Positions 1 through 14,296 of a stretch of 14,296 bases of DNA are shown piece by piece. A program made the position numbers and the translations under genes. The notes under the pieces were generated by a model. The model saw only the letters and a list, made by a program, of their open reading frames with translations, was not told the DNA's origin and ran no database searches. The DNA is from Candidatus Latescibacterota bacterium. GTDB taxonomy: Bacteria > JAAXHH01 > JABIQT01. The stretch lies in contig JABIQT010000921.1 of the NCBI GenBank assembly GCA_018667995.1, positions 1-14,296 of the forward strand, in the 5' to 3' direction. How positions within the stretch are numbered: position 1 is the stretch's first letter; each line of letters starts with the position of its first letter.

Positions 1-530
1 CGCAGTACAGCCTGCCCCGTAGTGACATCAGTACTGATGGGAAAGACCGCGGGGTCGATATAAATACGATCCAACGGCACATCTGCCGACGTCAAGGTAT
101 CAATCAATGAGCTGGCCATTTCTACCCTGTCGTCTGCGCTGGTGGGATATCCATTTTCGTCCATGCAGAGCGCGACTATTCCAGTCTGGTACTCAATCAC
201 CAGAGGTAGAATCGCGTCCACCCGGTCTTTTTCGTTCGTGATGGAGTTGATCATCGGCCTCTTCTGGCAACGGGGTAGAGCTGTTGCCAAGGCTTTTGGA
301 TCGGGACTATCCAGGCAGAGAGGAACATCTGTGACATCCTGTATCACATCAACCAGCCAGGAAAGATATACCTCTTCAAATTCAGCTACGCCGCCATTGA
401 CATCAAGGCAAGCTGCTCCGGCCTCGGTCTGCCGTGTGGCTGACCGCTGAATTCGCTCCGAGTCCTGCTTTTTCGCCGCTCGGGCTATGGGCTTTCTCGT
501 ACAGTTAATCTGTTCACCTATCAGAAACAT
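1..530 (-). CDS. Pterin-binding methyltransferase (AcsE/MetH-pterin/CmuB-like), 3' end beyond window
   Basis: This probably transfers a methyl group between methyl-tetrahydrofolate and a corrinoid protein in the cytoplasm. Only the first 176 residues are visible, because the frame is still open at base 1; AcsE-type enzymes are about 260 residues, so roughly a third is missing. Motifs expected of the pterin-binding TIM barrel occur in order: GEQIN (5-9), LDVNGG (42-47), CLDSP (72-76), INS (94-96), CMDENG (122-127) and IDP (158-160). The ATG at 528-530 is preceded by AGGTGA (535-540). That string also holds the stop codon of the upstream MetF-MetV gene, leaving 4 nt between stop and start, so the two are very probably translationally coupled. 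The family includes AcsE, the MetH pterin domain and CmuB/MtrH-like enzymes, and which exact acceptor it uses cannot be told. The family call is firm; the partner is inferred. Confidence 0.85.
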   Translation of the reverse strand, partial: MFLIGEQINCTRKPIARAAKKQDSERIQRSATRQTEAGAACLDVNGGVAEFEEVYLSWLVDVIQDVTDVPLCLDSPDPKALATALPRCQKRPMINSITNEKDRVDAILPLVIEYQTGIVALCMDENGYPTSADDRVEMASSLIDTLTSADVPLDRIYIDPAVFPISTDVTTGQAVL

Positions 531-534
531 GCGC

Positions 535-2097
535 TCACCTTTCTGTCGATTCTTCGTCCTGGGACAATGCCTCGACCTCCTGGCGTCGATGGTAGTTATC
601 GATGCCGGCCAGGCGGTTGGCCATCGAGTTCGTCCGGTTCAGAGACCAGTCCCTCGGTGGGACCAGTGTCCTTGCGAACTTCCTCGGATCCTGCATGGCG
701 GAAATGGTATACTGATAGGCTAATGTCCAGACGCAAGGCTGTTCGGCGTCAACCTCACAGGAGCCATCAGGCCGAGCCCCTCCGCAGGGACCGTTTCGGA
801 GTTCTTTGTAGCAGCGCCCCATGGAACAGCCGGCATATGCCAGATGATCCTGAATACAGTCGCCGCACCCCACACATCCGAGGTGACTCTTTTTAAACCG
901 GCGCGCTTCTCCCAGCATCGCATACCAGAGTCCGTGGCGCCACTCGTCTCCTTCGGGTGGCGTCCCGTTTATCCCCAGGCGCTTCTGTAGAAAATGGGCA
1001 CCCGAGGACTCATCGTCAATAAGCATCCGATTGGCCACCAGACAAATCTTCTGGGCTAGCTTAACTTCTCGATCGCCCTGACCCAACTGATAGGCAGTAC
1101 TGTCGTCACTCAAACCATCCTCACCAAGCGGGAAGAGATAGAACTCTTCAGGATGGGTGGCAACGAGTTCGTCCATCCGGCTGCGCCACGTGTCACCGAT
1201 GGCATCAGCCTTTTCTATGATAGTTGCAATATCCTTGTATTTAAGCCCAAAGCCACCGATGTGGGCGCCGGCAAATCCGAGCGATTTCACAGCGGCTACC
1301 ATGAGCGCTGCCCGCTCGAGCCTGTGGGGTTTCTTTTCTTTTTTCAGCTTTTCAAGAACACCATCGGGCATGACACAGCCAGCGATCCGTCCCTGCTGCA
1401 TCATCTTTCCAATGGTGGCGGTGGGAACATACACACTAGGAATTACCGGTACGTGGTCCAGCTCTTCGCGTTTCATGTACTGTTTCAGTTCGTACAGTTT
1501 TCGAAGGTTGTATCCAAGTTGCGTGATGATGAATCGCGCTCCGACGGCGATCTTCAATTCGAGCTTGTAATACTGCATCATCTGGTCGGATTCGCGGAGT
1601 TTGTACGGGCTTACCACAGCCCCAGGGAAGAAATCAAACGGCTCGGGGGCTTGATCCTCCGAGTCCTTGCTCTCCCGCAGGCTTTTGATCAGATCCAGAA
1701 TCAGTACCGAGTCCAAATCGTAGACCGGCTTAGCGAGGCCACCGAAGCCTTCCTGGGGAGCATCGCCTGTCAGCGCCAGGATATTCTCAGCACCGAGCCC
1801 AGCCAGACCGTGTAGCCTGCCTTCAATGAAATTTCTGTTGTCGTCCTTACCCGTGAGATGGGTAATAGGCGTCAGGCCACGATCCGTAATGGATTCCACG
1901 ACAAACTCAGGAGGCAGCGCGGGACGTCCTCCGGGAAGATCGGTGACACTGATCACCTTGACGCCTTCATCCGCCTTAGCAGCATCATCTATGAACTTAT
2001 GGAAGTCCGGGACATCGTGATCCCGTCCAAGAACCAGCTCCACTGAATACACAAAACGCCCCTGATTCAGGGACGATCGAAACTCATTAACAACCAT
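535..2097 (-). CDS. metF: Methylenetetrahydrofolate reductase with fused MetV-type C-terminal domain
   Basis: This flavoenzyme should interconvert 5,10-methylene- and 5-methyl-tetrahydrofolate. Residues 1 to about 300 form the MetF TIM barrel (YSVEL near the N terminus, LTGDAP near 105-110). The C-terminal part carries eight cysteines at 408, 411, 414, 424, 429, 438, 447 and 455. This pattern matches the MTHFR C-terminal (MetV) domain, which is a separate subunit in acetogens and binds metal or Fe-S there. The protein is 520 residues from the ATG at 2095-2097, preceded by GGGAAGG 9 nt upstream (2107-2113). An in-frame GTG at 2113-2115 would add six residues but lies inside that ribosome binding site, so the ATG is preferred. 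The gene is co-directional with the pterin methyltransferase 4 nt downstream. The fusion suggests an electron donor other than plain NAD(P)H, by analogy to MetFV complexes; that part is inference. Confidence 0.9.
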   Translation of the reverse strand: MVVNEFRSSLNQGRFVYSVELVLGRDHDVPDFHKFIDDAAKADEGVKVISVTDLPGGRPALPPEFVVESITDRGLTPITHLTGKDDNRNFIEGRLHGLAGLGAENILALTGDAPQEGFGGLAKPVYDLDSVLILDLIKSLRESKDSEDQAPEPFDFFPGAVVSPYKLRESDQMMQYYKLELKIAVGARFIITQLGYNLRKLYELKQYMKREELDHVPVIPSVYVPTATIGKMMQQGRIAGCVMPDGVLEKLKKEKKPHRLERAALMVAAVKSLGFAGAHIGGFGLKYKDIATIIEKADAIGDTWRSRMDELVATHPEEFYLFPLGEDGLSDDSTAYQLGQGDREVKLAQKICLVANRMLIDDESSGAHFLQKRLGINGTPPEGDEWRHGLWYAMLGEARRFKKSHLGCVGCGDCIQDHLAYAGCSMGRCYKELRNGPCGGARPDGSCEVDAEQPCVWTLAYQYTISAMQDPRKFARTLVPPRDWSLNRTNSMANRLAGIDNYHRRQEVEALSQDEESTER

Positions 2098-2162
2098 TTT
2101 GTGAGTCCTTCCCACATAAGATTAAGGTCGAGATCGTTAAACTTTGGAGCGCAAGAAGTGTG

Positions 2163-2192
2163 CCATATTGCGTGATAGAAATAGCAATATGG
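2163..2192. promoter_or_regulatory. 9-bp perfect inverted repeat in the leader of the metF-like gene
   Basis: CCATATTGC at 2163-2171 and its exact reverse complement GCAATATGG at 2184-2192 are separated by 12 nt. The element lies 65-95 nt upstream of the reductase start codon. It could be an operator for a dimeric regulator or an RNA hairpin in the leader transcript. There is no adjacent T-run, so it is not a standard terminator. Its role is inferred from position only. Confidence 0.5.
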
Positions 2193-2456
2193 TGCATCGT
2201 TAATCGAAAATGTGGCACTGCTTTTGTTACTTCCAACAGGCAAGGCACCACGCATATATAGCTGCAAATTTGATGGAAGACGCGTGAACAGATGGCCGTA
2301 AGTGACCAGTGGTACTGCTTTAAAGGAACCTATGTGAACAACTGCTTCGTCGACACATCGCAAGATCTCGACGCCAGATCAATCCCGAGTTTACCTAAAT
2401 CGCAGGAGACCACTCCAAATCATTGCGATTGTCACCCGAAAATCAGAAAATACGAC

Positions 2457-2552
2457 GACAGTCTGTCAATGCTCCGACCCGAAACAGGAGCTCGAATGAC
2501 ATTCTGTCAATTTTTCGTTTCGGCCCCCATCTTCTGTTGACATTCTGTCAAT
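2457..2552 (+). promoter_or_regulatory. Three palindromic operator-like repeats at exact 41-bp spacing
   Basis: Copies of GACANTCTGTCAAT start at 2457, 2498 and 2539, each 41 bp from the next, about four DNA turns, so they lie on the same face of the helix. The core is an inverted repeat that improves toward the gene: GACA-N3-TGTC (2457-2467), TGACA-N3-TGTCA (2497-2509), then TTGACA-N3-TGTCAA (2537-2551). The sequence between the cores is not conserved, which argues for protein binding sites rather than a duplicated segment. The last copy ends 27 nt before the start codon of the first UroD-like gene. A repressor or cooperative activator of that operon is the natural reading. The binding protein is not identifiable. 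Confidence 0.75.
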
Positions 2553-2579
2553 AGTTTCGATCAGTTTGAGGAGTCAGCG

Positions 2580-3842
2580 ATGTCAGTAGCGACAGAGGTG
2601 AACAATACATCGAGCGTGCGGCCCAAAGACAGACTCGTGCTACGTGATCTTGCTTGTCGCGTTGCGGAGATCGCGGCACTGCCGGTCATGGCAGAACGAA
2701 GGGCGACCTGGAAACGGCACAACAGTCTCGAAAGAGTACGCCCGATGATCCTGATTTTCCCTGAAGGCTCCTGGCGAGAGCTTATCCCGCAAGATACGTT
2801 GATCTGTGAAGATGACACGGCAAGGTCCATAGAATTTGAACTGCGAAGAAGGATTTACACCCACGAACACTTCAGTGATGATACGGTGATCGAGGATCAA
2901 TGGGTGGTGAACAGCACCGTGATCGATAGTGGTTGGGGTGTCGAAACACGTCATAAATCCAGCCATCAAGACACTGGCGCATGGGGGTTCGACCCGGTGA
3001 TCAAAACCAGGGAGGACTTGCAGAAACTCAGTTTACCAGTGGTCCACTATGATCGGATAACCACCGAAATGAATCTTTCCATTGCTCATGAGTTATTTGG
3101 GGACATCCTGAGCGTGAAGCCCAAAGGCATAGGCAATATCTCTTTCCATCTCATGGCGGTCTACACCAAACTGCGCGGCCTGCAGCAGGTATTCATGGAC
3201 ATGATCGAGAATCCTGAAATGCTCCACGAAGCCATGGCGTTTCTGGAGCGGGGCTACCGCCAGCGAGTTGAACAGTACGAATCATTGAATCTGTTGAGTC
3301 TGAACAACGATGGCACCTATCACTCTTCGGGCGGCGTAGGCTATTCCTCCGAATTGCCTTTAAAGGACGCAGATCCCGAGCACGTTAGACCGAAAGATAT
3401 CTGGGCGTCTGCCGAGTCACAAGAGATGGATCCCGTATCCCCGGACATGCACAAGGAGTTTGTGATGCAGTACGAAAAGCGACTGTTGGCGCCTTTCGGT
3501 CTCAATGGATATGGCTGTTGTGATAATCTGACGCATAAACTCGAACATGTGCTGGAGATTCCGAATATCCGTCGTATCTCTATCGCTCCCTGGGCGGATG
3601 TGGATCTGTGCGCCGATCAGCTTCGAGGCGACTGCATCTTCTCGTGGAAGCCGAAGCCTACCCACCTGGTCGGTGCCTTCGACGAAAGTGCTCTCAAGAA
3701 ATACATCAAACACACACTCGAGGTGACGTCTGGATGCGTCACCGAGATGATCCTGAAGGACACCCATACTTGTGAAAACGAGCCCGAGCGGTTCACACGT
3801 TGGTCGTCTATTGCCCGTGATCTCGTAGAAAAGCACGCCTAA
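2580..3842 (+). CDS. UroD-superfamily protein, long divergent form (420 aa), probable methyltransferase
   Basis: This is a member of the uroporphyrinogen decarboxylase/cobalamin-methyltransferase TIM-barrel superfamily, though divergent and longer than the usual 320-350 residues. It lacks the RQAGR substrate motif of HemE, so haem synthesis is unlikely. Two cysteine-bearing spots resemble the zinc-site positions of MtaA/MtbA-type enzymes: GYGCCDN with C313 and C314, and THTC with H396 and C398. The middle H-x-C or H-x-D motif of relatives is replaced by the CC pair. The start at 2580 is well supported by TGAGGAG (2567-2573) six nt upstream. It leads a set of three UroD-like genes, 31 nt before the second, and sits directly behind the three palindromes. 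A role in methyl transfer from a small substrate is inferred from the family and the folate enzymes next door; the substrate is unknown. Confidence 0.75.
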   Translation: MSVATEVNNTSSVRPKDRLVLRDLACRVAEIAALPVMAERRATWKRHNSLERVRPMILIFPEGSWRELIPQDTLICEDDTARSIEFELRRRIYTHEHFSDDTVIEDQWVVNSTVIDSGWGVETRHKSSHQDTGAWGFDPVIKTREDLQKLSLPVVHYDRITTEMNLSIAHELFGDILSVKPKGIGNISFHLMAVYTKLRGLQQVFMDMIENPEMLHEAMAFLERGYRQRVEQYESLNLLSLNNDGTYHSSGGVGYSSELPLKDADPEHVRPKDIWASAESQEMDPVSPDMHKEFVMQYEKRLLAPFGLNGYGCCDNLTHKLEHVLEIPNIRRISIAPWADVDLCADQLRGDCIFSWKPKPTHLVGAFDESALKKYIKHTLEVTSGCVTEMILKDTHTCENEPERFTRWSSIARDLVEKHA

Positions 3843-3873
3843 CGCGGCCTCCAAGATACTCCAGAAAGCAATC

Positions 3874-4848
3874 ATGCAGCCACGCGAAAGAGTCATTGAA
3901 GTCATATCCCACAGAAAGCCGGACCGAATTCCGGTGTACGGATGGGTAAGAGCCAACCTGGAATCACAAATCACGAAAGCATTTGGCTCTGTCGAGGCCT
4001 TTGAGGACAGGTATGAGTTCGACTACTCCCATATATTTGGTGGTCCTTCCCCCTACGACCAAAAAGCCGTCGAGGTACTGCGTGATGAGGGCGGTGGCAT
4101 GCTGGAACCGGCGGCCCTGATGGAAATGTCGTTGACCGACCCCAATACGGAGGCGGCCTACCAGAATATCCGCGAGGCTGTGGCCCACCACAAGACACAG
4201 CGGGGCCGGTTCGTATACGTGCAGACCCCAGGCATCTTTGAATGCCTGAACGGCGTTTTCGGCATAGAGAACCACCTGCTCTATCTTGCCCTTTACGAGG
4301 AGGATCTTCATCAGGTCTATGCGCGGCAAGCGGAGTGGAACCGGACTTTTGCAGGAAACTGCCTGGATCTTGGTGTGGACATGATTCATGTCTCAGATGA
4401 TTGGGGTGGCCAGAACTCGCTTCTCTTCAGTCCCGACACCTGGTGGCGCCTCATATACCCGTACCACAAGGTAACCTGCGATTATGTGGCTGATAGAGGC
4501 GGTTATGTCAGCCTTCACAGCGACGGGAATATCTCCGCACTTATGGACGGTATCGTTGATCTGGGATACGACGTGGTGCATCCCTATCAGGAGTCCGCGG
4601 GGATGGACCTGGTCGAATACAAGAAAACGTACGCTGATAAGTTCGTCGTTATGGGTGGACTGGATGTCCAGACAACCATCGGATTCGGTCGTTACGACCA
4701 CATAGCACGAGAACTGAACCGAGTGGTTGATCTGTTCAAGGAGGGGGGCCTGCTCCTCTGCACGACTCATTTTGTTCAGGACCACTGCACCATCGAAGAG
4801 TTGACCTTCGCATTTGACACGATCCATGAACTCGTCCGGTCCGAATAG
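3874..4848 (+). CDS. UroD-superfamily methyltransferase-like protein (324 aa)
   Basis: This cytoplasmic TIM-barrel protein of the uroporphyrinogen decarboxylase superfamily has the usual length. The N terminus (PRERV, KPDRIPV) is typical of the non-HemE members found in corrinoid methyl-transfer clusters, and the HemE RQAGR motif is absent. It has LHSDGN with H215 and D217, and C305 in DHCT near the C terminus. These are the three positions that hold zinc in MtaA/MtbA-type enzymes, with aspartate replacing the first cysteine. The gene starts 31 nt after the first UroD-like gene and ends 39 nt before the third; its ribosome binding site is weak, so it is probably read on the same transcript. 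A role as corrinoid-dependent methyltransferase is inferred. A degradative lyase or decarboxylase role cannot be excluded. Confidence 0.8.
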   Translation: MQPRERVIEVISHRKPDRIPVYGWVRANLESQITKAFGSVEAFEDRYEFDYSHIFGGPSPYDQKAVEVLRDEGGGMLEPAALMEMSLTDPNTEAAYQNIREAVAHHKTQRGRFVYVQTPGIFECLNGVFGIENHLLYLALYEEDLHQVYARQAEWNRTFAGNCLDLGVDMIHVSDDWGGQNSLLFSPDTWWRLIYPYHKVTCDYVADRGGYVSLHSDGNISALMDGIVDLGYDVVHPYQESAGMDLVEYKKTYADKFVVMGGLDVQTTIGFGRYDHIARELNRVVDLFKEGGLLLCTTHFVQDHCTIEELTFAFDTIHELVRSE

Positions 4849-4887
4849 GCAAATCACCAGCAGCAGGGCTCACACTCGGAAACCCAT

Positions 4888-5859
4888 ATGACGCCTCGCA
4901 ACAGGTTCATCTCAGCACTGCAGTGCAAACCCCTCACAGGTCTTGTGCCGCACTTTGAATTGGTTTTCTATCTGACCATGGAAGCATTCGGAAAGGTACA
5001 TCCGAGCCATCGCAATTATGGGCAGTGGTTCCAGATGACCGATCGGGAACGTCACCTGCACCGCATGGACATGGCTAATATCTATGTGGATACGGCAGAA
5101 CGATACAATCACAGCGCCATCTTCTTACACCCCAACCCCAGCGGTCTCGACGAATTACTTCAACTGATCGATTGTGTGCGGGAGATATCCGGCGACACCT
5201 ATTTCCTCATGATACATGGCGACGCGACTTACGGTGTGCCTTCCGGATCAGATATGATGGACTTTATCGAGCGGATCGCTGACGAACCCGAGAAAGTGAA
5301 ACAGGAGGCCGAAGACCAAGTCAACGAAGCGCTGACGAAGGCCGAGAAAATCTCGCAACATGGGGGATTGGACGGTTTTGCGCTGTGTACAGACTACTGT
5401 TTTAATACCGGCCCATTCTTGAGTCCCAACATGTTCTCTGAATACGTCACACCTTATCTTGCCCGCCTGACCCGTGGATATCGGGACATGGGATTCTATG
5501 TGATCAAGCATACGGACGGCAATATCATGCCGATACTGGACCAACTTGTGGACACGGAACCACACGCGCTCCACTCTCTTGACCCGCAAGGCGACGTGGA
5601 CCTGACCGAGGTAAAAAGCCTTGTGGGCGGCAGAGTTTGCTTGATCGGAAACGTGCACTGCGGATTCCTTCAAACGGGTACAGAAGAGGAGGTCGTGAGA
5701 AACGTCTCCGACACGCTGAAAGCAGGCATGTCCGGTGAAGGATATATCTTTTCGACCTCCAACTGCGTCTACACAGGTTTGCCGCTTGCCCGCTACGAAC
5801 TAATGCACAAAATCTGGATGAATGAGGGTGTTTATCGCGGCGACATTGTCCCTGCGTAA
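4888..5859 (+). CDS. UroD-superfamily methyltransferase-like protein (323 aa)
   Basis: This third member of the superfamily is clearly not a recent duplicate of its neighbours: N terminus and loops differ throughout. PRNRFISAL opens the protein as in many methyltransferase-cluster UroD proteins. KHTDGN supplies H208 and D210, and SNC supplies C293 as the likely metal-site residues. GNVHCG near residue 255 is an additional His/Cys pair. The HemE RQAGR signature is absent. The gene follows the second UroD-like gene by 39 nt and ends 133 nt before the Rrf2 regulator, so it probably closes the operon, although no clear terminator is visible. Its likely role is methyl transfer to or from a corrinoid or folate carrier, inferred from family and context. 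Confidence 0.8.
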   Translation: MTPRNRFISALQCKPLTGLVPHFELVFYLTMEAFGKVHPSHRNYGQWFQMTDRERHLHRMDMANIYVDTAERYNHSAIFLHPNPSGLDELLQLIDCVREISGDTYFLMIHGDATYGVPSGSDMMDFIERIADEPEKVKQEAEDQVNEALTKAEKISQHGGLDGFALCTDYCFNTGPFLSPNMFSEYVTPYLARLTRGYRDMGFYVIKHTDGNIMPILDQLVDTEPHALHSLDPQGDVDLTEVKSLVGGRVCLIGNVHCGFLQTGTEEEVVRNVSDTLKAGMSGEGYIFSTSNCVYTGLPLARYELMHKIWMNEGVYRGDIVPA

Positions 5860-5992: not shown

Positions 5993-6415
5993 ATGTTTTC
6001 CCGCGCCTGCGAATATGCAATTCAAGCCCTGATTGATCTGGCCGAACGGCCGGTTGGCGTGCACGTGCCGGTCAAGGAGATAGCAGGTCACTGCAATGTG
6101 CCCTACCATTTCCTGGGAAAGATCGTGCAACAACTGTCCAAGAATGGCGTGCTCTCGTCGGCAAAAGGACCACGTGGCGGCATCACGCTGGCAGCCCCTC
6201 CGGGGGAGATCACGTTGCTCCGTATCGTGGAAGCCATAGACGGTCTTGATGTGGCCACACGATGTGTGCTGGGACATCCTTCCTGCCATGATAAGAGTCC
6301 TTGTCCGCTCCATGTTGAATGGGGCAAGAACAGGGAACAGATCATGAAGATGCTGACGGAGAGATCGCTGGAGGATCTGGCAGCGGAGTACCGGGCCAAC
6401 AAGGCGGTCGTTTGA
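5993..6415 (+). CDS. Rrf2-family transcriptional regulator, probable Fe-S sensor
   Basis: This small winged-helix regulator belongs to the IscR/NsrR/RsrR family and is 140 residues, the usual length. The N terminus (FSRACEYAIQAL) and the wing motif KGPRGG are diagnostic. Three cysteines at 91, 98 and 104 match the spacing and position of the cluster ligands of IscR-type proteins, so it probably carries an Fe-S cluster and senses redox state, oxygen, NO or cluster supply. The frame is open upstream to 5822, but that would overlap the UroD-like gene and add residues foreign to the family; the ATG at 5993 gives the canonical start. It lies between the C1 genes and the cytochrome operon, and a shared sequence element stands before both itself and that operon. 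The exact signal is not deducible. Confidence 0.92.
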   Translation: MFSRACEYAIQALIDLAERPVGVHVPVKEIAGHCNVPYHFLGKIVQQLSKNGVLSSAKGPRGGITLAAPPGEITLLRIVEAIDGLDVATRCVLGHPSCHDKSPCPLHVEWGKNREQIMKMLTERSLEDLAAEYRANKAVV

Positions 6416-6494: not shown

Positions 6495-8591
6495 ATGTAC
6501 ATGGATCAGAACGAGGAAAAGACAGTGGCCGAACCGGAACTCACCCGGAGTCAGCGGATAGCCAGAGAATGGCGCGCGCGGCTTGCGGTTGCCGTTGTAG
6601 CACTGCTGATCTTCGAATCCATTACCGGTCTCTCCATCTATTTCCTCCCCTTCAGTGTGACAAATCAGTTTGCCGTCCTTCTCCACACCGCCGCTGGATT
6701 GCTGGTAATCGTACCCTATGCCTGGTATCAGATACGCCACGCGCTGTTGTCCAGACGCCTACCAATGACCGGCACAAAGTTTCTGGGTTACGCGGCACTC
6801 GCGGCCGTGTCGGTGTGTGTGATTTCAGGCATAGCCGTTACCTATGAATCCGCGTTTTCAGTTCGAATGAGTACTGCCTGGCAACTGGTGCATACGCTGA
6901 GTGGCTTCGTCAGCATAGCGGTGCTCGTACCTCATATCGGCCTCATTCTTCTCCGGTACAGATCTCATCACACAGCCGACCAACTTGTTAATGCGGCACA
7001 GCGGGCATTTGGCCGGGGAGTAGCCACTTGGTCCGTTGCTCTTCTAGGAGTAACGGCACTCGTCATATACGCCTATACACCCGTACAGCTTCGCAACGAA
7101 TTTCCTGAGGACTACAGCTGGAAGTACGGCAAGAATCCATTCGCGCCCAGCCTCGCCATGACCTCAACAGGTGGCGCCTTCGATCCGGAGTCCATGGCGA
7201 ATTCTGAGACTTGTGGCACAGCCGGTTGTCACGAGCAGATCGTAGAGGAATGGCTACCAAGCGCCCACCGCTACGCAGCCATGGACAAGGCCTTCCAGGC
7301 GATCCAGGCGACCATGGCAGAGAATAACGGCCCCGAGTCCACCCGGTACTGTGCTGGATGCCATGATCCGATCTCACTATTCTCCGGTAACAAGACCGTC
7401 TACACCGACGAGCTCACACAACCGCATGGATACCAGGAAGGCATCTCCTGCATCGCTTGTCATTCCATAGCCCGGACCGATGTGAAAGGGAATGCGAACT
7501 ACATCATGGTCCAACCGACCCGGTATGTCTACGAATTAGACAAAGGACCGACGGCCAAGTTCATCAGTGACTTTCTGATTCGAGCTTATCCCGAGAATCA
7601 CAAGAAGAGTTTTGCAAGAGATCTGTACAAAACTCCCGAATTCTGTGGCGCCTGCCACAAGCAGTTTATCGACAAAGAGATCAACAATGTGGGCTGGGTC
7701 CAGCTTCAGAATCAGTATGACAATTGGCGACAAAGCCGCTGGCATAACCCCGATGATCCGGAACGTTCCATCACCTGTCGTGAGTGCCACATGAGACTGA
7801 ACACCTCATTCGATCCGGCCGCCGGTGACCGGACCGACTTCAATCGTACCGCTTCTGATGGAAAACACCGGGACCATAGATTCATCGGTGCAAACCAGTT
7901 TATTCCCGAGCTGCACAATCTACCGGGCGCCGACAAGCAAGTGGCGATGACGGAGGAGTGGCTACGTGGCGATACAGTCATTCCCGAGATCGCCGACCGA
8001 TGGATGACGGGCCCTGCCATTCCCCTGGAGATCCTCGCACCACCGAATGCGGCTCCTGGTGAGGAGATCTCTCTGAAAGTAGTGCTCACAAATAACAAGG
8101 TCGGCCACGATTTCCCCACGGGGCCCCTTGATATCATCCAGGCCTGGGTTGACCTGAAGGTGACCGACAGCACGGGCAAGGAAGTCTACCGCTCTGGGGC
8201 CCTGAACGATCGAAACTTTATTAAAGAGGGTTCCTTCATCTTCAAAGCAGAAGGAATCGATCAATACGGCAACCTGATCGATAGACACAACCTCTGGGAG
8301 ATGGTGGGCGCACGCTTTCGCCGATCCCTGTTTCCCGGCTTTTCAGATGCCGCCGAGTTCAGCTTCTTCTGCCCCGCTACTATTCAATTACCGGGAGAGA
8401 TTCTGGAGACCGAACAGGACCACAAATTCCAGGTCTCCGAGGATCAGAGAGAAAACCTGCATGTGACGGCAAGGCTCCGGTATCGCAAGATTGATCAGTT
8501 TCTCATGAATGTCATGTTTGGCGAAGAGTCCGGTCTCACCACACGTATTACGGACATTTCCAGCGACTCTCTTACCATACAGATTCGCTAG
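6495..8591 (+). CDS. Membrane cytochrome: five-helix b-type-like domain fused to pentahaem cytochrome c domain
   Basis: This is a probable quinol-linked electron-transfer protein of the inner membrane with a large periplasmic part. Five hydrophobic helices (about 29-51, 58-80, 95-117, 129-153, 176-194) carry histidines in or at the ends of helix 2 (H64, H82) and helix 4 (H133, H147), a layout suggesting two b haems. The periplasmic part has five haem-c sites: an unusual CX4CH (C240, C245, H246) and four CXXCH (C286, C319, C384, C428), in a cytochrome c554-like arrangement. A C-terminal beta-rich domain contains GHDFPTG with H538. ATG codons at 6495 and 6501 are both possible; numbering uses 6495, while the GGA just before it fits the 6501 start slightly better in spacing. 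It is the first gene of the operon and follows the shared promoter element. Electron direction is not known. Confidence 0.85.
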   Translation: MYMDQNEEKTVAEPELTRSQRIAREWRARLAVAVVALLIFESITGLSIYFLPFSVTNQFAVLLHTAAGLLVIVPYAWYQIRHALLSRRLPMTGTKFLGYAALAAVSVCVISGIAVTYESAFSVRMSTAWQLVHTLSGFVSIAVLVPHIGLILLRYRSHHTADQLVNAAQRAFGRGVATWSVALLGVTALVIYAYTPVQLRNEFPEDYSWKYGKNPFAPSLAMTSTGGAFDPESMANSETCGTAGCHEQIVEEWLPSAHRYAAMDKAFQAIQATMAENNGPESTRYCAGCHDPISLFSGNKTVYTDELTQPHGYQEGISCIACHSIARTDVKGNANYIMVQPTRYVYELDKGPTAKFISDFLIRAYPENHKKSFARDLYKTPEFCGACHKQFIDKEINNVGWVQLQNQYDNWRQSRWHNPDDPERSITCRECHMRLNTSFDPAAGDRTDFNRTASDGKHRDHRFIGANQFIPELHNLPGADKQVAMTEEWLRGDTVIPEIADRWMTGPAIPLEILAPPNAAPGEEISLKVVLTNNKVGHDFPTGPLDIIQAWVDLKVTDSTGKEVYRSGALNDRNFIKEGSFIFKAEGIDQYGNLIDRHNLWEMVGARFRRSLFPGFSDAAEFSFFCPATIQLPGEILETEQDHKFQVSEDQRENLHVTARLRYRKIDQFLMNVMFGEESGLTTRITDISSDSLTIQIR

Positions 8592-8604
8592 AGAGAAGGA
8601 ACGG

Positions 8605-10404
8605 ATGAGTATCCGAAAACGAGTTTTGGGCATGTTCCTAACCTTAGCCTGCATAATATTGCCGGGCCCGGTCACTGCGCTGGTGTTGGACGGTAAAGTC
8701 ATTGACGGTAAAGATCCCGTTGAAGGCGCCCGCGTACGTATTCACGGCGATGCCATATTTGTGCTGACGGACGCACAGGGCGAGTTCCACCTGTCCACTC
8801 CCGTCGAGGCAGCAGGATCAATCGTGGTGACGGCAGGCAAGTTGGGATGGGTCACAGGCGGTGTTAAGATTACCAAAAACACCTCATACACGACCATCGT
8901 GATCACGCCGGTTCCCGATGAGGATGATCCGGATTACGATTTCATCACGCCGCACAAGTCACTGGTGGACCTGCGCGACGAACCGGATCAGCTGCGAAAA
9001 CTCCGAATGCGTTCCCACGCCACCTACCGGGAAAACTGCAATATCTGTCACTTCGAGCCGACCTGTTTCCTTTGCCATCGAGATATCTATGACCAGTGGA
9101 GCACTTCTTTCCACTCCCAGTCAGTAACCGATCCCTGGGTCCAGCAGTTGTACACAGGAATGGACGCTGAGGGCTCGCAGAACACGGGCCCCGGATACCG
9201 AATTGACAACCCGAACGATGTCGGCAACTGTGCAGACTGTCATGCCCCATCGGCAGCGATCAACGCACCCGGAAAGACGGATCTGCGCGTCGTCTACAAC
9301 CGTGGAGTTACCGTATACCCTACCTCCATAGGCTACAAATCGACGGAGCGAACAGAGATTGAGAAGAAGGCCGGCAGCGTGAACGCATCAGGGGTACACT
9401 GCGATTTCTGCCACAAGATCAAATCCGTTGAGGTAAACGATAGGCCTGGTGTGGACGGCGCCATCGCACTGACGCGTGCAAACATGAAGGACGTGCCTGG
9501 GACCATACAGGGCAAGCTGCCGACCATGTTCGTCTACGGTCCCTTCGACGATGTCGTGGATTTCTCACCTGTATCCATCCAGGCAGTAACTTCTCCCATG
9601 GTTGCGAGCTACAATCCCATCTACACCAGCAGTGACTACTGCTCCGCCTGTCATCAACATCGCTCGGACAACGGCCTACCGCTCATCAATACCTACGAGG
9701 AGTGGAAGAATAGCCCATATGCCGAGGCTAGCATCGAATGTCAGGCATGCCACATGCAGCCGGATCTTGAAATGGCGAGAGGTACTGTGGTAACGGGAGA
9801 CGCTGAGAAATACTGGGCGCCTATTGAGTCCAGAGATATGGAAACGGTGAAGCGACACGACTTTCTCGGCGGTCACAAAAACATGATGGCAGGAGCCGCT
9901 GCCCTCCGTATCGAAACCCGCCAGGATAACGGCCAGCTCCGGGTTCGTATCGGTGTAGAGAATGTCAATACAGGTCACCACATACCCACCGGAATCGCCA
10001 TTCGTAACATGCTGCTATTGGTGACCCCCGTACTAGCCAGTGGTGACACCTTGGAGTTTACCGGCCAGAACGTCGTACCGGAGTACGGAGGGATGGGGCC
10101 CGTTGAGTCAGGCAACTATGCCGGCTATCCCGGAAAAGGCTTTGCCATGGTCTTTGGAGATGACGAGGGCAACTCGGCAGTCATGGACTGGCAGGCCACA
10201 CGCATACTCGAAGACACGCGCATTGAAGCTAAGACCACTGATATATCCGAATACTTCTTCAAATTACCCGCGACGCCATCGCCCATCTCCATCCATACCC
10301 ACCTCATATACCGTCGCGCGTACAAACCCCTGGCAGACATCAAGAAATGGGAACTGGAAGACATTCCGGTATCGTCCGACGTGACCGTGATCACCATGAA
10401 ATAG
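8605..10404 (+). CDS. Exported hexahaem cytochrome c with N-terminal regulatory-like beta domain
   Basis: This is a periplasmic or surface electron carrier of 599 residues. A signal peptide is clear (RKR then a hydrophobic run, probable cleavage after VTA near residue 25). Residues 26-105 resemble a carboxypeptidase-regulatory-like/CnaB beta domain (VIDGKDPVEGARV, TDAQGEFHL), unusual on a cytochrome. Six CXXCH sites follow with first cysteines at 145, 154, 209, 266, 346 and 379. The C-terminal part has GHHIPTG (H458, H459), matching a motif in the preceding protein, so the two are related beyond the haem sites. The start at 8605 is set by AAGGA (8596-8600) and by the signal peptide; the frame extends upstream into the previous gene but that part is rejected. 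It follows the membrane cytochrome by 13 nt and probably takes electrons from or gives them to it. Confidence 0.87.
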   Translation: MSIRKRVLGMFLTLACIILPGPVTALVLDGKVIDGKDPVEGARVRIHGDAIFVLTDAQGEFHLSTPVEAAGSIVVTAGKLGWVTGGVKITKNTSYTTIVITPVPDEDDPDYDFITPHKSLVDLRDEPDQLRKLRMRSHATYRENCNICHFEPTCFLCHRDIYDQWSTSFHSQSVTDPWVQQLYTGMDAEGSQNTGPGYRIDNPNDVGNCADCHAPSAAINAPGKTDLRVVYNRGVTVYPTSIGYKSTERTEIEKKAGSVNASGVHCDFCHKIKSVEVNDRPGVDGAIALTRANMKDVPGTIQGKLPTMFVYGPFDDVVDFSPVSIQAVTSPMVASYNPIYTSSDYCSACHQHRSDNGLPLINTYEEWKNSPYAEASIECQACHMQPDLEMARGTVVTGDAEKYWAPIESRDMETVKRHDFLGGHKNMMAGAAALRIETRQDNGQLRVRIGVENVNTGHHIPTGIAIRNMLLLVTPVLASGDTLEFTGQNVVPEYGGMGPVESGNYAGYPGKGFAMVFGDDEGNSAVMDWQATRILEDTRIEAKTTDISEYFFKLPATPSPISIHTHLIYRRAYKPLADIKKWELEDIPVSSDVTVITMK

Positions 10405-10425
10405 CAGTTTCCACGAAAGACTAAG

Positions 10426-12276
10426 ATGGCAACGAGAAGACAGCGACAGCTCCATTGGACGATCGGATTGACCACAGCGGCAATCGTCGTTTCTGCAATT
10501 GCCATTTTCAATCGGTCCCTGAATCCCAGCGGGTCCGGCGATGAAATAACGCAACTCTCCGAAATCGCCAGGGCCCTCATGAGAGACCTTCCGGACGACC
10601 ATCCCAACGTGACGTTTACAGACGCTACCACCTCCGCGGGTGTATCATTTGTTCATTTCTACGGGGATCGGACTACCAGACTGCCTGAAGATATGGGGTC
10701 CGGCGCAGCATGGGGCGATTATGATAATGACGGCGACAGTGACCTGTATTTCGTGAACACATCGGGAGCGCTCGCGCTCACGCCGGCACAACGTCAGGAC
10801 TCCCCGGCACGCAATATGCTCTACCAAAACAACGGGGACGGCACATTCGATGACGTAACCGATAAGGCAGCGGTCGGTAGTCATGCTATGGGAATGGGAG
10901 CCACGTGGGGCGATCACGACAATGACGGTGATCTGGACCTGTATGTGACCAACTTCGGGCGGAATATCCTGTACGACAATAACGGCGACGGCACGTTCTC
11001 CGACTTCACATCGAGAGCTCGGGTCGATGGAAATAGCGATGGGTTCTGGTCGGGCGCGGTCTGGTGTGATTATGATCGTGACGGAGACCTTGATCTTTAT
11101 GTCTGCAACTATGTCGGCTATAGTGATCAACTCAGTGAACTGGGAACCGCATCCCCCCAATATGGAGCACTAGTGCCCTACACCCTTAATCCGTCCTCTT
11201 ATGATCCCCTTCCCAATGTGCTCTACCGCAACAACGGAAATGGCACCTTCACAGATGTGGCGAAGCAGGCCGGCGTTGACAACCCCGAGGGGAGAAGTCT
11301 CGGCGCAGTTTTCTGTGATCTCGACAACGATGGATGGCAGGATCTTTACGTGGCGAACGATGTTTCCGAGAGCAAGCTGTATTGGAACCGTGGAGACGGA
11401 ACTTTTGAGGACGCAAGCGCGATAACCTGGGCCGCAGACTATCGTGGAGCAATGGGAATAGCCGTCGGTGATTGGGAGAACGACGGTGATTTCGACATCT
11501 TCAAGACACATTGGATAGCCCAGGAAAATGCTTTCTACAACAACCTGACCGAAGACATGAACGATATGATCGACCGCGGCTCAAAGGGCGGCGTTCCGGA
11601 GTTTCTAAGGTTTACCGACCTGGCTGACCGATATGGCCTCGGAGAGATATCATTAGACATGGTTGGCTGGGGAACGGGGTTCATGGATTACGACAACGAT
11701 GGACGACTCGACGTGTTTATCGTCAATGGCAGCACCTTCGAAAACCGGGAAGACACCCGCAAACTGATACGCCAGCCCAACATGCTATTCTGGAACAGAG
11801 ATTCCGAAGAAGGTTTCTACAATGTTACATCAGTTAGCGGAGACGCGCTTCAGAAGGCCAACGTGGGCCGGGGTGCTGCTTTCAATGACTATGATATGGA
11901 CGGCGATGTAGATATCGCCATAGTATCCAACGGCGAGGCCGCGGTGCTGCTGCGAAACGAAAATCCCAACGCCCATCAGTCTATCACCGTGAGACTGCAC
12001 GGCACCATAAGCAATCGATTCGCCGTGGGCGCGCGAGTCACGGTCAGCGCGGACTCAACGCGGCAGGTTCAGGATGTCGGATCAGGCGTATCCTACCTCT
12101 CGTTCGGTGGCCACGATCTGGTCTTTGGCCTTGGGAGGTATAGTCAAGCCGATTCCGTAAGTGTGCGATGGCCCAACAGCGACGAGCAGATTATCACGAA
12201 CATCGCATCAAATAGTCTGGTCGAGATCACGGAACAGAACGGGTATACGCTATCGCAGAGGAGCCTCACCCAATGA
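10426..12276 (+). CDS. FG-GAP/VCBS repeat protein with C-terminal ASPIC/UnbV domain (CRTAC1-like)
   Basis: This is a beta-propeller protein, 616 residues, anchored by one N-terminal helix or uncleaved signal (RRQRQ then about 12-29) and facing the periplasm or outside. Seven calcium-binding DxDxDGxxD-type repeats begin at D98, D163, D215, D298, D349, D421 and D488, the usual count for a seven-bladed propeller. Residues about 518-604 form the ASPIC/UnbV domain (RFAVGARV, VGSGVSYLS, VRWP). Such proteins are frequent in Planctomycetota, Acidobacteriota and related groups and are usually uncharacterised. It lies 21 nt after the hexahaem cytochrome and overlaps the TPR gene by 4 nt, so it is part of the same electron-transfer operon, possibly as scaffold. 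It has no catalytic motif I can name. Confidence 0.9.
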   Translation: MATRRQRQLHWTIGLTTAAIVVSAIAIFNRSLNPSGSGDEITQLSEIARALMRDLPDDHPNVTFTDATTSAGVSFVHFYGDRTTRLPEDMGSGAAWGDYDNDGDSDLYFVNTSGALALTPAQRQDSPARNMLYQNNGDGTFDDVTDKAAVGSHAMGMGATWGDHDNDGDLDLYVTNFGRNILYDNNGDGTFSDFTSRARVDGNSDGFWSGAVWCDYDRDGDLDLYVCNYVGYSDQLSELGTASPQYGALVPYTLNPSSYDPLPNVLYRNNGNGTFTDVAKQAGVDNPEGRSLGAVFCDLDNDGWQDLYVANDVSESKLYWNRGDGTFEDASAITWAADYRGAMGIAVGDWENDGDFDIFKTHWIAQENAFYNNLTEDMNDMIDRGSKGGVPEFLRFTDLADRYGLGEISLDMVGWGTGFMDYDNDGRLDVFIVNGSTFENREDTRKLIRQPNMLFWNRDSEEGFYNVTSVSGDALQKANVGRGAAFNDYDMDGDVDIAIVSNGEAAVLLRNENPNAHQSITVRLHGTISNRFAVGARVTVSADSTRQVQDVGSGVSYLSFGGHDLVFGLGRYSQADSVSVRWPNSDEQIITNIASNSLVEITEQNGYTLSQRSLTQ

Positions 12277-13166
12277 GACGAAACCTGGGTGTTCCGACAT
12301 ACCTCGCGGGTGCCTTCATCATAGCCTTCCTGGGAATCACGCTGCTAAAGGGAGATACGGATCCAAAGGATACAGATGATGCCACAGCGTACTCGGATAC
12401 GCGAAAGGCTCAGATTGATGGATTCTGGCGTCTCTATTCAGCGGCGTCAGATCAACGTCGCAATGGGGACCTCGAAACAGCGGCGAAGACCTATGGTGAA
12501 GCCCTGACGATGAATGAGCGACATGAAGACACGCTCTATTACCTGGGCAATTCGCTCGCACAGCTTTCACGGCACGTCGAGGCGATCGACGTCTTTGAGA
12601 AACTGGTCTCGGTCAATTCTCTTAGTGCGAGAGCACACTTTCAAATGGGAACGATTCGGAGTAATACCGCCTCTGGGGATCTTTTCGATCTCGATGCGGC
12701 TGAGCAGGAGTTTCAGCGAGCATTGGAGATTAACCGGGAGGAAAGTGCTCCCGTTCAGCGGTTGGGTGAGATCGCACTTGCAAAGGGGCAGTCAGCAAAG
12801 GCGATGCGACTCCTTGGCGATACGATCCGAACCAACGAGAAGGCCGTTGGGGCCTATGTCCTACTGGGCTATCTGCGGTGGGAGCAAGGCGACAGAGACA
12901 AGGCTCGCCAACTGATGAACCAGGCCAGAGCACGTACCGGCATTGAGACAACGCCCACCGGCGTCGCAGGAGAAGGAGATACACTTCCTGGACAGCTTCC
13001 CAACATTCGGCGAATTGGATTGTTTACGCAACATGTTCAAGCTGCGATTGCCGACTCTGTTGATGCTTCACCCTCTGAAGTCGAGACACGGTATTCTGAA
13101 CTCCATCGTCATATCAAAGATGTGGGATCCCGATGGAGAGAATCGCAATCCAAGCGGTCAGGGTGA
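12273..13166 (+). CDS. Membrane-anchored TPR protein
   Basis: This 297-residue protein has an N-terminal helix (about 7-25) followed by at least four and probably five tetratricopeptide repeats between residues 50 and 220 (for example AAKTYGEALTMNE, HVEAIDVFEKLVSVN, AEQEFQRALEIN, KARQLMNQA). It is likely a protein-interaction scaffold on the outside of the inner membrane. Its ATG overlaps the stop codon of the ASPIC/UnbV gene (ATGA at 12273-12276), a sign of translational coupling and of joint function. The C-terminal 70 residues (after GIETTPTG) show no recognised domain. Its role in assembly of the cytochrome complex is inferred from context only. Confidence 0.88.
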   Translation: MRRNLGVPTYLAGAFIIAFLGITLLKGDTDPKDTDDATAYSDTRKAQIDGFWRLYSAASDQRRNGDLETAAKTYGEALTMNERHEDTLYYLGNSLAQLSRHVEAIDVFEKLVSVNSLSARAHFQMGTIRSNTASGDLFDLDAAEQEFQRALEINREESAPVQRLGEIALAKGQSAKAMRLLGDTIRTNEKAVGAYVLLGYLRWEQGDRDKARQLMNQARARTGIETTPTGVAGEGDTLPGQLPNIRRIGLFTQHVQAAIADSVDASPSEVETRYSELHRHIKDVGSRWRESQSKRSG

Positions 13167-13186
13167 GCAGTCTTCAAGGATTCTTT

Positions 13187-13210
13187 GTGGGCTTGGCTGC
13201 GCCATCCCAC
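13187..13210 (+). other. Stem-loop in gap before the Fe-S membrane protein gene
   Basis: GTGGG and CCCAC (13187-13191, 13206-13210) enclose a second nested pair, GGC and GCC (13195-13197, 13201-13203). No T-run follows, so it is not a standard terminator. It may attenuate read-through or protect the transcript end; it could also be chance. Confidence 0.35.
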
Positions 13211-13283
13211 GGAAATGTAAATCAAATAGAGTAGCAAGGCACGACAGCAACTGAGCCCATAGCGCTCGGAAGAAAAGGAAACG

Positions 13284-13290
13284 GGAGGAG
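13284..13290 (+). promoter_or_regulatory. Strong ribosome binding site that sets the start at 13294
   Basis: GGAGGAG lies immediately before AAA and the ATG at 13294, among the strongest ribosome binding sites in the window, while the upstream genes of the operon have weaker ones. It supports the start of the Met-rich protein and suggests high or independent translation. Confidence 0.7.
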
Positions 13291-13293
13291 AAA

Positions 13294-14296
13294 ATGGGAC
13301 ATGACGGAATGGGGATGGATCAGGATATGATGGATATGATGGGAGGAATGCCAGACGGACTGGTTTTTGCCACAGTCCTGGCACTCATCATAGTATCTGT
13401 AGTGTTGGCCGCCGGTCTCAATCTCAGGACGAATTCTTCGGGCCAAAATAGATACTGGACCTTCGATCTGCTCACCATACCCGCTGTGGGGCGGTTCTTC
13501 AAAAGCAGATTCTTTCAATTCTCACTTCAGTTACCCGTCGTATTGATCTTCCTCTTCACTATTCTCGTGGGGCTCTTCGGGAGTCAGCTAACGGCCAAGA
13601 ACGCCGCACCGCTTCTGACCTGGACTATCTGGTGGGCTGGGCTGATCCTCATCATTCTGCTCCTTGGTAAATTCTGGTGCATCGTCTGCCCCTGGAACGC
13701 ATTGGCGCAATGGATAGAGAGACTCACATTCTGGAAGACCTCCTCCGCCAAGCTGTCCCTGGGTCTGAAGTGGCCCACCAAGTGGCGCAACATCTACCTG
13801 GCCACAGGACTATTCATAGCCCTCACGTGGCTGGAACTGGGATACGGCATCACATTCAGTCCGCGGATGACGGCATACTTCGCTATTCTCATGATCGTCA
13901 TGGCAGTCGTGAGTATCCTGATCTTCGAGCGCCAGTCATTCTGCCGCTATGCCTGTCTCGTAGGTCGGGTCAGCGGAATGTACGCGTTGTTTTCGCCGCT
14001 GGAGTTGAGAAGCAGTGATCAGCAGGTGTGCAAAACCTGCGGCACAAACGACTGCGTAAACGGAAACGAGAAAGGTTACGGGTGTCCTACCTCTCAGTAT
14101 CTGGGTACCATGGATACCAATACCTACTGCATTCTCTGCTCCGAGTGCATTAAGACCTGCCCCCACGACAACGTGAGTGTAAACATACGACCATTCGGAG
14201 CCGACCTGAAAGACCACACCAAAGGGCAGGCTGACGAAGCGTATCTCGTCATCGTGATGCTCAGCATGACGGTGTTCCATGGACTCACCATGACCC
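13294..14296 (+). CDS. NapH/NosR/CcoG-like polyferredoxin membrane protein, Met-rich N terminus, 3' end beyond window
   Basis: This inner-membrane electron-transfer protein probably passes electrons across the membrane through Fe-S clusters. The frame stays open to the end, giving 334 residues so far. Hydrophobic helices are visible at about 22-42, 78-98, 110-126, 168-186, 193-211 and starting at 316. Between them are the two cysteine loops of this family, CIVCP (C129, C132) and CRYAC (C217, C221). Then come two cytoplasmic-type clusters: an irregular one (C246, C249, C254, C264) and a canonical CX2CX2CX3CP (C279, C282, C285, C289). The first 22 residues contain eight methionines plus His and Asp, resembling copper-binding Met-rich segments. 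It is 127 nt after the TPR gene and on the same strand. NapH, NosR, CcoG and PceC-type proteins are all possible relatives; the partner enzyme is not visible. Confidence 0.85.
   Translation, partial: MGHDGMGMDQDMMDMMGGMPDGLVFATVLALIIVSVVLAAGLNLRTNSSGQNRYWTFDLLTIPAVGRFFKSRFFQFSLQLPVVLIFLFTILVGLFGSQLTAKNAAPLLTWTIWWAGLILIILLLGKFWCIVCPWNALAQWIERLTFWKTSSAKLSLGLKWPTKWRNIYLATGLFIALTWLELGYGITFSPRMTAYFAILMIVMAVVSILIFERQSFCRYACLVGRVSGMYALFSPLELRSSDQQVCKTCGTNDCVNGNEKGYGCPTSQYLGTMDTNTYCILCSECIKTCPHDNVSVNIRPFGADLKDHTKGQADEAYLVIVMLSMTVFHGLTMT

Follow-up and report, generated by a model that had tools for sequence, protein, structure and literature searches.

CbcL of the Geobacter inner membrane is a b/c quinol oxidoreductase with six helices and nine c haems (PMC9129911). 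The pentahaem cytochrome (PHC) family takes in Geobacter ExtKL and the PHCs of cable bacteria, and both ExtKL and archaeal nanowires, themselves PHC relatives, have been tied to extracellular electron transfer (PMC11976967). Genes encoding CRTAC1-type FG-GAP proteins flank hydrazine-synthase-like clusters (PMC12758564). Features of these systems recur in five consecutive genes (g1 to g5) on a contig from a Candidatus Latescibacterota metagenome-assembled genome (MAG). As in CbcL, a predicted transmembrane dihaem b domain is joined in g1 to a periplasmic multihaem c domain, a likeness of architecture. Unlike CbcL, which has no reported ASPIC partner, g1 has about five helices, five c haems, and a PHC fold. 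Both g2 and the periplasmic part of g1 have sequence and predicted fold in common with the pentahaem c552 of Thermochromatium tepidum (5ze8), including an Ig-like C-terminal domain; relative to c552, g2 has an additional N-terminal haem and a carboxypeptidase-regulatory-like domain, while g1 has an additional dihaem-b membrane domain.

The window analyzed here corresponds to a whole contig, 14,296 nt in length, from a fragmented MAG (6.06 Mb, 1165 contigs, 85% complete). Sequence to the right of position 14296 is therefore missing, and neither the rest of g5 nor anything beyond it was found in its own assembly. The phylum is sampled by 16 genomes, its named relatives being MAGs labelled Latescibacterota, Gemmatimonadetes, Zixiibacteriota, or "uncultured bacterium". 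Recomputation of ORFs and gaps reproduced the arrangement described in an earlier sequence-only reading, with all five genes on the + strand and the first four spaced by 13, 21, and -4 nt (an ATGA overlap); 127 nt separate g4 from g5. The proposal that they form one operon was supported. Promoter- or terminator-like sites between the genes did not exceed chance level in a scan of the window. A gene for an Rrf2-family regulator (5993..6415, + strand, 140 aa; PF02082, E 3.4e-32; TIGR00738, 109 bits) lies 79 nt upstream of g1 on the same strand and may head the g1-g5 operon, a membership that we infer; judged by its C-X6-C-X5-C motif, the protein is a probable [Fe-S] sensor. Positions 3-5859 of the window hold a methyl-transfer locus, with three consecutive URO-D/MtaA-like methyltransferase-type genes on the + strand and a MetF/MetV-like gene and a pterin-binding methyltransferase-like gene on the - strand. 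From sequence comparison, structural models, and conserved gene order, and with slightly better than even confidence, we read the operon as a quinol:multihaem-cytochrome electron-transfer module of the cytoplasmic membrane, with the propeller and TPR proteins as its scaffold.

The first gene, g1 (6495..8591, + strand), encodes a 698-aa protein that is, as had been read from the DNA, a b/c fusion, here of a membrane b-type cytochrome with a periplasmic pentahaem c domain. About five hydrophobic helices at the N-terminus are followed by one CX4CH motif (240), four CxxCH motifs (286, 319, 384, and 428), and an Ig-like C-terminal domain. Shuffling at constant composition gave ~0.006 CxxCH motifs on average, hence the haem motifs of g1 and g2 are not due to chance. 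Across an alignment of six homologs from five phyla, H64 and H82 in the second helix and H133 and H147 in the fourth were invariant; in a broader set of 23 relatives, H133 was invariant and H64 nearly so. H64/H82 (TM2) and H133/H147 (TM4) are candidate ligand pairs, placed as expected of two b haems, and g1 thereby carries the four histidines on two helices looked for in a CbcL-like b/c quinol oxidoreductase. By analogy, we propose that g1 works like this type of enzyme. An AF2 model of g1 (pLDDT 81.6) matched the fold of 5ze8 (E 3.2e-12), and a DUF4405 match fell under the cut-off. The genome holds further g1-type genes: that at L133 has a TPR-like tail, and that at L135 repeats the g1-ASPIC pair, an ASPIC gene following it directly.

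Directly downstream, g2 (8605..10404, + strand; 599 aa from the ATG at 8605) encodes a predicted exported cytochrome c. The six haems assigned to it earlier were confirmed by six CxxCH motifs (145, 154, 209, 266, 346, and 379), located between a signal-peptide-type hydrophobic N-terminus with a carboxypeptidase-regulatory-like (transthyretin-like) domain and an Ig-like C-terminal domain. Similarity to 5ze8 was evident in sequence (E 2.6e-16), profile (6.8e-28), and fold (8.5e-20). Judged by haem spacing, predicted fold, and Ig-like C-terminal domain, g2 is a member of the PHC family with one extra haem. Assignment of g2 to ExtKL itself (NF040886) was rejected at 60.7 bits, under the curated cut-off of 250, a cut-off that g1 did not reach either. 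In Chloroflexota (L078, L092, and L109), proteins containing 11 haem motifs in ~965-995 aa resemble two fused PHC units.

Each of the 15 genomes of the same order, as well as the window's own, encodes a g2 paralogue, a hexahaem c with 57-61% identity. Wherever the contig was long enough, its cluster contained genes for PorV, a TonB-type outer-membrane protein, and a large protein of cell-surface type, together with TPR and ASPIC genes. As a candidate extracellular pathway, this cluster is preferable to the window operon. In this phylum-wide cluster (L038 on contig C219 of the same genome; L039-L048), the surface-like protein has ~1075 aa and the TPR protein 536 aa, and genes for an NHL protein and a 179-aa protein are present as well. 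Elsewhere in the genome (contig C997, L049:1385-3328), a pentahaem PHC protein ends in a type IX secretion sorting domain, from which we expect that this cytochrome is probably exported to the cell surface. The sequence-only reading had suggested a surface electron conduit. In such a conduit, g1 would oxidize quinol, g2 would be exported to serve as an external wire or terminal cytochrome, and g3 and g4 would aid its crossing or attachment to the outer surface. The company of the 61% paralogue (TonB-type protein, type IX PorV, surface-like protein, TPR, and ASPIC), the sorting domain of the L049 protein, and the link of ExtKL and archaeal nanowires to extracellular electron transfer (PMC11976967) all speak for such a conduit. 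However, the window ORFs, up to position 14296, include no porin, outer-membrane barrel or other outer-membrane protein, and no PorV, g2 lacks both a type IX sorting domain and a clear lipobox, and no outer-membrane partner is in view for the g1-g3 core of other phyla. A strict porin-cytochrome conduit was rejected for want of a barrel among these ORFs, and we consider the broader conduit unlikely.

The third gene, g3 (10426..12276, + strand), encodes a CRTAC1/ASPIC-UnbV propeller in which both defining domains score above their cut-offs, FG-GAP_3 (PF13517) with E 3.7e-44 (149.6 bits versus 26.9) and UnbV_ASPIC (PF07593) with E 1.2e-16 (60.7 bits versus 23.4). It also matched the CRTAC1 structure (PDB 9etn; E 1.5e-18). 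Proteins of the ASPIC/UnbV (CRTAC1) type occur widely in environmental bacteria and are not known to have an assigned function. The overlapping g4 (12273..13166, + strand) encodes a TPR protein, identified by TPR models and by an orthologue (48% identity) at L140. Both g3 and g4 are predicted to have a single N-terminal hydrophobic transmembrane anchor. As in the hydrazine-synthase-like clusters, a gene of ASPIC/CRTAC1 type here adjoins others that encode periplasmic haem proteins. Homologs of HZS alpha and beta-gamma are encoded in those clusters, whereas the window encodes no HZS subunit, and the hydrazine-synthase-like interpretation prompted by that work (PMC12758564) was rejected.

The operonic link between ASPIC, TPR, and multihaem cytochrome genes put forward by the sequence-only reading recurs in other phyla. 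A profile search of 384 genomes recovered g1 relatives in 34. For the close g1 subfamily, eight loci were read (L181, L182, L183, L185, L187, L189, L203, and L204), six from the 384-genome sample and two added, spanning four phyla besides that of the window (the count draws on complete genome lists for the phyla of G000, G081, G158, and G044, none of which includes G363). At all eight loci, the next same-strand gene after g1 encoded a g3-type ASPIC protein, scoring 488-644 bits to g3 and closer to g3 than to the other ASPIC protein of the phylum. A g4-type TPR accompanied it in five of the eight, as a C-terminal fusion to the ASPIC protein in L181, L182, L187, and L204 and as a separate gene in L183; g1 of L204 carries a frame break that is probably an assembly error. 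The concerned genomes that were counted encode about 7-21 ASPIC domains each, so that chance adjacency of g1 and ASPIC genes would be well under 1% per locus. Distances among g1 and g3 proteins were also correlated (r 0.87, permutation p 0.0002), which is no independent proof since shared vertical descent gives the same result. In more distant g1 relatives, the b, pentahaem, and TPR parts form one chain, with an ASPIC gene adjoining in L134, L178, L179, L190, L191, and L193 and none in L180, L184, L188, L192, and L194.

The families of the components are known, but the g1-ASPIC-TPR combination is apparently undescribed: no account of it was found in the literature searched (ASPIC/UnbV with multihaem cytochromes), most subscription literature being out of reach. 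Tentatively, and with a little less than even confidence, we suggest that g1, g3, and g4 represent a new class of membrane quinol-cytochrome oxidoreductase, present in at least five phyla, in which the ASPIC/FG-GAP propeller is obligate and the TPR part usual, which could serve various terminal enzymes and to which the phylum of the window adds a PHC/NapH-related pair. If true, this would be the first respiratory role for the widespread ASPIC/UnbV proteins. The fixed pairing of ASPIC protein and b/c cytochrome in five phyla suggests a testable role for the former within an electron-transfer complex, either as a subunit or as a docking partner. Poorly known phyla, among them that of these Latescibacterota-labelled MAGs, would also gain a candidate for the quinone link in their respiration.

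No catalytic subunit could be recognized among the window genes, in agreement with the sequence-only reading, and a molybdopterin alpha subunit beside g1-g3 was absent from the window. In type II DMSO-reductase-family (DMSOR type II) operons, a family that includes perchlorate reductase and ethylbenzene dehydrogenase, homologs of g1-g3 are the closing genes at two loci from two genera of one phylum (L189 and L203). There, genes for a cytochrome b and a 6-haem c are followed by DMSOR type II alpha, beta, gamma, and delta (the chaperone) and then by the g1-g3 pair; L203 adds a Rieske protein, and its operon is headed by an Rrf2 gene. No other enzyme association was found for the g1-g3 core, and in both loci the enzyme genes precede g1 instead of following on the right, the position that had been considered for the window. 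No enzyme was evident beside the core in L181, L182, and L185. Since the core resides in a molybdoenzyme operon in another phylum, here too it most likely serves a redox enzyme encoded elsewhere.

In the quinol:cytochrome module that we favor, (mena)quinol would exchange electrons with the dihaem-b membrane domain of g1, and the b haems would pass them to the pentahaem c domain on the periplasmic side. As a soluble PHC-family hexahaem protein, g2 would be the next carrier after g1, toward a terminal enzyme. Anchored in the membrane, g3 and g4 would lie on the periplasmic face and act as scaffold or docking partners of g1. For g5, a membrane Fe-S protein that possibly interacts with copper, we envisage either a second Fe-S route in the membrane or the maturation of a copper or haem partner. 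The module would thus feed, or drain, a redox enzyme that acts in the periplasm or outside the cell and whose gene lies elsewhere. In L189 and L203, g1 need not be the quinol donor, because these operons already carry a bc-type complex.

Flow in the opposite sense, from a periplasmic dehydrogenase through the chain to quinone via g1, appears rather improbable. Cytochromes are reversible, and the molybdoenzyme family beside g1-g3 in L189 and L203 spans reductases and dehydrogenases, ethylbenzene dehydrogenase being among the DMSOR type II enzymes; yet the solved structure closest to the alpha subunit is perchlorate reductase (5e7o), a reductase, and no linked dehydrogenase is in view in the window.

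The last gene, g5 (13294..14296, + strand, open at the contig end), encodes a polytopic membrane Fe-S protein (PF12801) with a Met/His-rich N-terminus, MGHDGMGMDQDMMDMMGGM, followed by a polytopic membrane part with Fer4_5. Membrane helices, CxxCP-type motifs, and two four-cysteine [4Fe-4S] motifs are shared with NapH/MauN proteins. Unlike these, the g5 orthologue is 518 aa long at full length (L140:1135-2688, 69% identity to g5) and has a Met-rich N-terminus and extra helices, and one locus (L145) holds both types side by side. With 36 bits against a cut-off of 213 (TIGR02163), NapH/MauN proper was rejected for g5; of its earlier description as a Met-rich NapH-like protein, the Met-rich start and the relationship to NapH hold. 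The order g4-g5 is kept, at 48% and 69% identity, in G001 (L140), which belongs to another family of the window's phylum. L140 is the only relative carrying the region to the right of g5; its next gene (L140:2757-3472) reads, by eye from the translation, as the N-terminus of a glycyl-radical enzyme, and relatives of that gene in the genome of the window are only 29-38% identical.

In Desulfobacterota (Deltaproteobacteria/Desulfobacteraceae labels; L064, L065, L067, and L068), a g2-type pentahaem c shares an operon with a g5-type protein fused to an N-terminal cupredoxin domain (NosZ/CoxB-like, CuA-like). CcdA- and TlpA-type genes lie between the two in L065, L067, and L068, while L064 has no clear CcdA or TlpA. 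Both g2 and g5 are absent from the g1-g3 operons of other phyla. Synteny of all five genes was found in none of 15 relatives and 384 sampled genomes, the five-protein set being seen once, although parts of it recur outside this genome, namely g1-g3(-g4), g2-g5, and the g4-g5 order. As the g1-g3 and g2-g5 pairs occur in separate operons elsewhere, the window combines two modules that are otherwise found apart, b/c cytochrome with ASPIC and TPR, and PHC-type c with the NapH-related protein. The single assembly proposed earlier is accordingly retained as a joint operon here and not as one conserved unit.

The Desulfobacterota operons also bear on whether the window encodes a redox maturation or NO/metal-stress system instead of a respiratory chain. 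The association of g2-type c, CcdA, TlpA, and cupredoxin (CuA-like)-g5 fusions in L065, L067, and L068, the Met-rich N-terminus of g5, and an Fe-S-type Rrf2 regulator that may head the operon would suit such a function, which we nonetheless judge very improbable: the dihaem b and five c haems of g1 are costly electron-transfer machinery, and the g1-g3 core has no neighboring thiol genes. The operon of L064, L065, L067, and L068 additionally encodes a carboxypeptidase-regulatory-like protein. At L145 (G010:C133), the neighbors of the g5-type gene encode a true NapH, a pair of NapG-like ferredoxins, and a molybdoenzyme resembling NapA/Fdh.
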